Notes under the pieces: generated by a model
Told to the model about the DNA's origin: nothing
The model's input: only the letters and a program-made list of their open reading frames with translations
The model's database searches: none
Source of the DNA: an uncultured Porphyromonadaceae bacterium
Lineage (GTDB): Bacteria; Bacteroidota; Bacteroidia; Bacteroidales; Muribaculaceae
Assembly: GCA_945231345.1 (NCBI GenBank)
Contig: CALYOL010000002.1
Span: 1-42,662, forward strand
Length of the DNA stretch: 42,662 nt
Reading direction: 5' to 3'
In this document: positions 8,674-10,172 of the stretch, piece after piece
Numbering within the stretch: the first letter of the stretch is position 1
How the letters are laid out: each line of letters opens with the position of its first letter
Made by a program: the position numbers and the translations under genes

Positions 8674-9390
8674 TCAGGCAATAATATCTCTTAAGTCATT
8701 CACAGTAGTAACATCTTCGCCAAATTCAATGGGGAGGTTGTTGCGATTAAAGAACACTGCGCGCCAACCGGCATTTAACGCGCCTTTTATGTCTGTGTCG
8801 GGATTGTCTCCAATCATGATTGAATGTTCAGCGGTGGTTCCTGCCTTTTGTAGTGCATAGTCGAATATTCGGCGGTCCGGCTTGTTGATGTCAATTTCAT
8901 CGCTAAGCACAATGCAGTCTATCATGTCAAGCACTCCACCGGAGCGCAGTTTGTCAAACTGAACTTCCTTAAAACCGTTGCTTAACACGCCGATTTTAAG
9001 TCCTCTCGCCTTGATGTGCTCAAGCAATGTCCGCGCTCCCGGGACGAGTGCACTGCACTGTCCCAGTATGCGGAGGTAGTCTGTGTGAAGCACTTCGCTG
9101 TAGTCATAAGCAGCCTTCTCGTCCATTCCGCAGTCTATCAGCGGACGGGCGAAGCGTTCGTGCTGGAGGTAGTCTTTAGAAATAGTTCCGACGTTATAGC
9201 GAGCCCACAGCGAGTGGTTTACCTCAAGGTATCGGTTTCTCCACTGCTCCATCGTTGGGTAGAATCGGTGCAAATCGTGCATGTCGTAGATTTTCGCCAG
9301 TGAGATTAGGGAATTGCCGGAGAAATCCCACAGAGTGTCGTCAAGGTCTACCCATACCCATTCTATTCCTGTAAGGTCTATTGCTGCCAT
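8674..9390 (-). CDS. HAD-family hydrolase, YjjG-like pyrimidine nucleotidase
   Basis: Start reassigned to ATG at 9388-9390 (MAAIDLTGIEWVWVDLDDTLWDF), 1 nt after the upstream TGA. HAD motifs DLDDT, LSNGF, KPDRRIF, MIGDNPDTDI. Confidence 0.88.
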   Translation of the reverse strand: MAAIDLTGIEWVWVDLDDTLWDFSGNSLISLAKIYDMHDLHRFYPTMEQWRNRYLEVNHSLWARYNVGTISKDYLQHERFARPLIDCGMDEKAAYDYSEVLHTDYLRILGQCSALVPGARTLLEHIKARGLKIGVLSNGFKEVQFDKLRSGGVLDMIDCIVLSDEIDINKPDRRIFDYALQKAGTTAEHSIMIGDNPDTDIKGALNAGWRAVFFNRNNLPIEFGEDVTTVNDLRDIIA

Positions 9391-9391
9391 A

Positions 9392-10084
9392 TCACTCAAG
9401 TTCAAAAATTTTCCACCATTTGTATGAAATGTCTTTGTCAATCACTTCTGTTCCTCCCTCAATCCGCTTGAGAGCTTTTACCACACGGATAGTGACAGGC
9501 AGTATGATAATCTCATATCCGGTCTTAAGCAGTGCCTGTGTGAAAATCAGCGAGAAAACCACACTCCATGGCAACACTCCGCCAAAGGCTATTGGGAAAA
9601 ATATCAGCGAGTCAACGCTTTCGCCCCAAAGAGTGGAAACGATGGCGCGGAGGGAGAAATGATGTTTGCCGTCGGTGCGCTTCATCCGGCTCATGACGTA
9701 TGCGTTCACAAATGAGCCGCAGAGGAATGCCGTAAAGCTTGCAAACATTATCCGTGGGACAGCGCCGAAAATTGAACTCAGCGCTTCCTGCTGAGTCCAT
9801 GTCTCTCCGCCGGGTAATGCTATAGCGAGTTGCAAGAGGAGAGATACGATTAGGTTTGAGGCGAAGCCCAGCCATATCATCAGGCGCGCTTTTCGGAAGC
9901 CGTATACCTCTACGATGCAGTCGTTTATTATGTAAGAAATTGGGAAAACTATCACACCTGCCGTAATTGTGAAGAAATTGCCTATATCTATGGTTTTGAT
10001 TTCTACGAGGTTAGATACTATAAGGCAGATGCAGAAAAGAGTGGAGAGGAGGAGAAACGTAAGTGTAAACTTTGGTTGTTTCAT
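9392..10084 (-). CDS. yhhQ: Queuosine precursor transporter (YhhQ/VUT family)
   Basis: Start reassigned to ATG at 10082-10084 (MKQPKFTLTFLLLSTLFCICLIVSNLVEIKTI). ITAGVIVFPISYIINDCIVEVYGFRKAR is typical of COG1738. The ORF-track start at 10114 would lie inside the riboswitch. Confidence 0.9.
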   Translation of the reverse strand: MKQPKFTLTFLLLSTLFCICLIVSNLVEIKTIDIGNFFTITAGVIVFPISYIINDCIVEVYGFRKARLMIWLGFASNLIVSLLLQLAIALPGGETWTQQEALSSIFGAVPRIMFASFTAFLCGSFVNAYVMSRMKRTDGKHHFSLRAIVSTLWGESVDSLIFFPIAFGGVLPWSVVFSLIFTQALLKTGYEIIILPVTIRVVKALKRIEGGTEVIDKDISYKWWKIFELE

Positions 10085-10088
10085 TGTT

Positions 10089-10120
10089 CTTGTTTTTAAC
10101 GAGGTAGCAAGCACTCGGTG
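10089..10120 (-). promoter_or_regulatory. Candidate preQ1-I riboswitch aptamer
   Basis: Minus strand: CGAG-UG-CUUG-CUAC-CUCG-UUAAAAA-CAAG. P1 CGAG:CUCG; pseudoknot P2 CUUG:CAAG; A-rich tail; C immediately before the P1 3' strand, U after the P1 5' strand, A before the P2 3' strand. Upstream of a queuosine-precursor transporter. Confidence 0.8.
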
Positions 10121-10141: not shown

Positions 10142-10172
10142 CAAAGGTAGTGAATTTTTTCCATATGGCAAA
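10142..10172 (-). promoter_or_regulatory. Bacteroidetes-type promoter of yhhQ operon
   Basis: -33 TTTG (10169-10172), 19-bp spacer, -7 TACCTTTG (10142-10149) on the minus strand. Confidence 0.75.

Follow-up and report, generated by a model that had tools for sequence, protein, structure and literature searches.

The targets of preQ1-I riboswitches in Bacillus subtilis include queC, as is generally known and as is also recorded in PMC11625349. Members of the class are divided into subtypes by the two bases before the 3' strand of P1: UC marks type I and AC type II, while AC together with UU after P1 marks type III (PMC11625349). Types I and II have already been placed in the Bacteroidota by the same review, so the class itself is not new there. 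The review, published in 2024, also treats the discovery of riboswitches in mRNAs without a Shine-Dalgarno (SD) sequence as an outstanding challenge and predicts their existence (PMC11625349).

The locus considered here lies on the minus strand of the window, by which is meant the whole stretch of 42,662 nucleotides that was analysed. Its features, in the direction of transcription, are as follows; Tte denotes the type II aptamer of Thermoanaerobacter tengcongensis.

10169..10172 (-): possible -33 element TTTG, separated from the -7 element by 19 nt (sequence; consensus from PMC7366714)
10142..10149 (-): -7 promoter element TACCTTTG, consensus TAnnTTTG (sequence; PMC7366714)
10114..10117 (-): 5' strand of P1, CGAG, which covaries with 10100-10103 across Bacteroidales (sequence)
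10112..10113 (-): L1, UG, of which the U is, in the presumed register, the equivalent of U6, a ligand contact in the Tte aptamer
10108..10111 (-): 5' strand of P2, CUUG, complementary to 10089-10092 and unchanged in the 34 distinct copies that come from other families
10105..10107 (-): L2, CUA, which differs in length and sequence among copies
10104 (-): putative specificity C, equivalent to Tte C15; the A that precedes it completes the 'AC' typical of type II preQ1-I (PMC11625349)
10100..10103 (-): 3' strand of P1, CUCG, which covaries with 10114-10117
10093..10099 (-): L3, UUAAAAA, A-rich and predicted to occupy the minor groove of P1; the A-tract is invariant in the alignments
10089..10092 (-): 3' strand of P2, CAAG, at -8 to -5 from the ATG, near-invariant
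10085..10088 (-): spacer AACA, 4 nt, up to the start codon (sequence)
9392..10084 (-): yhhQ, queuosine precursor transporter of 230 aa, ATG at 10084 (TIGR00697, 125.8 bits; cut-off 50.95)

The element is thus a sequence that can form an H-type pseudoknot, CGAG-UG-CUUG-CUAC-CUCG-UUAAAAA-CAAG, which occupies 29 nt at 10089-10117 (-) and has a 10-nt loop between the two strands of P1. The first-pass annotation had given the RNA and both stems (P1 CGAG:CUCG and P2 CUUG:CAAG) exactly to the base; the range that it cited, 10089-10120, contains the element but takes in 3 nt too many of the 5' flank. The pocket positions that it named are present (U past the 5' strand of P1, C ahead of the 3' strand of P1 and A ahead of the 3' strand of P2), and the 4-nt gap that it described is read as CAAG, then AACA, then the ATG at 10084. 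Its identification of the downstream gene as a YhhQ queuosine precursor transporter agrees with the TIGR00697 match, which lies above the model's cut-off. Relative to the yhhQ start codon the A-tract of L3 falls at -9 to -13, and L3 and the 3' strand of P2 together span -5 to -15.

AC stands ahead of the 3' strand of P1 in 88 of 88 copies, collected by a scan that demanded the C and not the A, and there is no UU after P1; the element therefore fits type II. L1 is UG in 80 of the 88 copies and UA in the other 8 (the scan admitted only these two, and alignments A1-A3 show no others), and both its first base, U, and the putative ligand-pairing C are invariant in A1-A3. The Bacteroidales form has a P1 of 4 bp and a short L1, either UG or UA, and its P2, CUUG:CAAG, is Watson-Crick throughout. 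As a whole, the element is probably (at a rough probability of 0.87, judged from sequence) a Bacteroidales-specific preQ1-I riboswitch of the type II kind, which would act on translation as an OFF switch by occluding initiation of yhhQ.

The window itself gives little statistical weight to the fold. A strict pseudoknot descriptor finds three matches on its minus strand, compared with about 0.1 on each strand of Markov-resampled sequence, and is by itself not decisive; minimum free energy folding of the leader, by a method that cannot model pseudoknots, is unremarkable (z 0.19). A covariance model, R2, was trained only on Bacteroidales families other than the window's own (alignment A3). With this model the site scores 44.4 bits (E 4.6e-8), and the second-best in the window reaches only an E-value of 0.79. 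It is conservation, and not the descriptor or folding, that lifts the site far above chance.

A check on covariation of both stems had been proposed, and it succeeds for P1. The forms CGAG:CUCG, CGUG:CACG, AGUG:CACU, AGAG:CUCU, UGAG:CUCG and GGAG:CUCC are seen, two of the P1 pairs are changed on both sides among the copies, and pairing is found in 97-100% of cells compared with 25-62% for slid partners. All eight pairs of the pseudoknot are kept in 34 of 34 distinct copies outside the window's family. Copies of the main form all have the same P2, which differs only in a divergent variant, so its support comes from complementarity and position, covariation leaving it unproved. The divergent form, variant B (L072 1453-1492, L083 1462-1501, L085 1459-1498, L087 and L159 786-824), retains P1 and the A-tract and has a UUCUAG-like strand in place of CUUG, which pairs with CAGGAA or CAAGA with an A.A mismatch; its UCUAG is like that of the published B. 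subtilis aptamer.

The leaders of orthologous yhhQ genes had been proposed for this comparison. The element is present there in many Bacteroidales, and also in queC leaders, which the first-pass annotation had not foreseen. In the window's family, a search of 149 genomes with R2 gives 57 sites at E<=0.01, and all 57 lie immediately upstream of yhhQ (by coordinates, from two match tables compared by reading). A second model, R1, finds 43 sites at E<=1.5e-4 in 295 Bacteroidales genomes, the window's included; the gene downstream of the 42 other strong sites examined is a TIGR00697 transporter in 34 cases and queC in eight, and several genomes have the element before both genes. The strong sites therefore define a putative queuosine regulon, and hardly anything other than queuosine genes is marked by the element. 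In 398 genomes of the phylum R2 matches, besides the window, only a pair of Bacteroidales already known to carry the element and a weak, unrelated site (L161, E 0.049), which was rejected as it bears no resemblance to the motif.

The window's genome (84.8% complete) encodes QueC and QueF side by side, together with a contig-truncated Tgt. The R1 scan finds a single copy of the element in it, before yhhQ, and thus the transporter alone would be controlled in this genome; yhhQ would be repressed in this organism while the precursor is plentiful. A YjjG/YfnB-like HAD nucleotidase gene (TIGR02254, 182.5 bits) at 8674-9390 (-) starts just past yhhQ and is probably co-transcribed with it, and a similar HAD gene also lies 3' of yhhQ in L029. 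In this Duncaniella locus (L029 979-2187) no aptamer precedes yhhQ, which is the second gene and follows one for a KdsC-like HAD phosphatase, and the upstream gene of the motif-less Muribaculaceae loci L020, L024 and L036 ends as in L029. In the public metagenome-assembled genome records L011, L013, L019 and L023, the titles of which name Staphylococcus, Paenibacillus, Pseudoflavonifractor or Lachnospiraceae, the yhhQ loci are of the Muribaculaceae type, and the titles look wrong.

The Rfam PreQ1 model (RF00522), named earlier as a check, does not call the site when the window is scanned at gathering or permissive thresholds. Its cut-off of 39 bits is a database threshold and not a biochemical criterion; it is exceeded in none of the 295 Bacteroidales genomes and in only one of the 398 genomes of the phylum (L169, 50.7 bits, from another order). 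The miss is a matter of insensitivity rather than refutation, because genomes in which clear-cut copies stand in front of yhhQ and queC are also left uncalled. A permissive preQ1-II match to the other strand (16.6 bits against a cut-off of 47) was set aside as chance. Two other Bacteroidales families have sub-cut-off, type-I-like preQ1-I elements (UC) before queC (L165 1501-1547 (+) and L167 1501-1547 (-)), and the over-threshold site of L169 (1501-1545 (-)) is a canonical preQ1-I before yhhQ in another Bacteroidota order. The 39-bit threshold appears to lose real members. The occurrence of canonical preQ1-I on yhhQ and queC in related lineages supports preQ1 as the ligand.

Strong conservation of sequence, in a position on the ribosome landing site, might also be expected of a motif recognized by a protein, either a regulator or the transporter itself, or of a conserved translation enhancer, with no small molecule involved; in the Bacteroidota a leader that is simply A-rich would already favour initiation (PMC6847099). 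Such a site is nevertheless very improbable. The conserved residues fit the preQ1-I pocket in the U, C and A positions and in the AC signature, the compensatory changes in P1 are unexpected for an unstructured enhancer, and the element is linked to two different queuosine genes, with nothing else found, which are the same genes that carry canonical preQ1-I in related lineages. A riboswitch ligand other than preQ1 is a separate matter. YhhQ-type transporters carry both preQ0 and preQ1 (PMC11625349) and the pairing C should tolerate any ligand with a guanine-like face, so that another 7-deazaguanine, preQ0 or queuine, could be bound. This is unlikely, given that all the studied preQ1-I aptamers are named for preQ1 and that the window's genome encodes QueC and QueF; since the product of queC makes preQ0, linkage to this gene is more in line with feedback by preQ0 or preQ1 than by queuine.

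The mechanical list of open reading frames begins this gene at GTG 10114 and, as had been pointed out, would hide the element within coding sequence. Were that start correct, the stretch would be the 5' end of the gene and the pseudoknot fortuitous. There is, however, an in-frame stop within the motif in 49 of 84 homologous copies, by which a coding extension from GTG 10114 is excluded. The lengths of the spacer moreover differ by non-multiples of three, and the same motif stands in front of queC, which encodes an unrelated protein, leaving the chance of a coding origin vanishingly small.

The consensus of Bacteroidota promoters consists of a -7 element TAnnTTTG and a -33 element TTTG (PMC7366714), and TAnnTTTG is found within 90 nt upstream (<=90 nt) in 63 of the 88 copies compared with 4.5 in shuffles. 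In the window the promoter TTTG-N19-TACCTTTG ends at 10142, which therefore gives a leader of about 50 nt, the length that had been predicted from the sequence; transcription is expected to start at about 10135, and most of the leader would be aptamer.

Between the end of the motif and the ATG there are 3-6 nt in 81 of 84 copies, and exactly 4 nt in 56. No terminator-like site was found at the locus. Both observations favour translational control, as the first-pass annotation had argued. The aptamer could instead act on transcription, through pausing stabilized by the pseudoknot or through premature termination, since type II aptamers can act in this way, as in B. subtilis, and such pausing requires no terminator (PMC11625349). 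This is distinctly unlikely, as nothing like a terminator lies at the locus and a gap of 3-6 nt leaves no room for a separate expression platform. It finds some support in several queC copies: in the leaders L121, L130, L148 and L149 about 70-170 nt separate the motif from the ATG, and a different expression platform must therefore operate there, so that occlusion beside the ATG is not universal.

Occlusion of initiation at yhhQ would have to work differently from the classic case. The Bacteroidota make no use of SD sequences; adenines at -3, -6, -12 and -13 promote initiation, and structure close to the start codon inhibits it (PMC6847099). An SD-like 4-mer is found in only 2 of 82 leaders, and classic sequestration of an SD sequence by the aptamer is consequently not seen. 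Adenine is present in these 82 leaders at 59% (-3), 87% (-6), 96% (-12) and 91% (-13), and the window's leader has A at all four positions. With A at -6, -12 and -13 in most leaders, the A-tract of L3 and the tail of P2 coincide with the initiation signal.

From this geometry we infer how the switch might operate. Abundant preQ1 (or a close 7-deazaguanine) would bind between P1 and P2, pair with C10104 and lock the pseudoknot, burying L3 and the 3' strand of P2 (-5 to -15) and keeping the 30S subunit off the mRNA. When the ligand is scarce P2 would open, leaving the A-rich stretch free as an SD-independent initiation region, and more transporter would be made. The element may thus represent an SD-free translational riboswitch in which the A-tract of L3 and the P2 tail double as a Kozak-like initiation signal (-6, -12 and -13) that is hidden on ligand binding, within an order-wide preQ1 regulon (yhhQ, queC) missed by Rfam; the balance of evidence leans moderately towards this fuller proposal.

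A description of this Bacteroidales form was sought in the literature, apart from the 2014 survey of preQ1-I distribution, and none was found; the sequences of the subgroup may already be among the 521 of type II in that survey. What appears to be new, relative to Rfam and to the literature searched, is the Rfam-invisible, order-wide yhhQ/queC regulon of this form and its fixed, SD-free platform. The element is a compact, widespread and genetically tractable candidate for an SD-free riboswitch, with a fixed geometry to the start codon. Its distribution suggests that the uptake and synthesis of queuosine precursors in many gut Bacteroidales are under a switch invisible to standard annotation.

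The overall architecture of the element is that of Rfam RF00522 PreQ1. It has most in common with the Tte type II aptamer, with which it shares the H-type pseudoknot, the AC signature, the 10-nt loop between the P1 strands, a G-C pair at the top of P1, an A-rich L3 with a final A, a translational position and CAAG as the 3' strand of P2 (the Tte sequence is printed in PMC10639078). In Tte, however, P1 has 5 bp and L3 9 nt, compared with 4 bp and 7 nt here, and only two of the four steps of P2 are canonical (PMC11625349), whereas P2 of the element can be fully Watson-Crick; unlike the Tte aptamer, the element has no SD sequence to bury. The B. subtilis type II aptamer similarly has GCUAC in the loop, the AC signature and an A-rich L3, and queC is a target in both groups, but it works by means of a transcription terminator and has a loop of 12 nt, compared with 10 nt in the window copy, which lacks a terminator. 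Finally, type III preQ1-I, from E. coli and the yhhQ-linked group, shares translational control, linkage to yhhQ and the AC signature, and differs in its conserved UU after P1 and its buried AAGG SD sequence (PMC11625349), in place of which the element has UG or UA and an SD-free leader.
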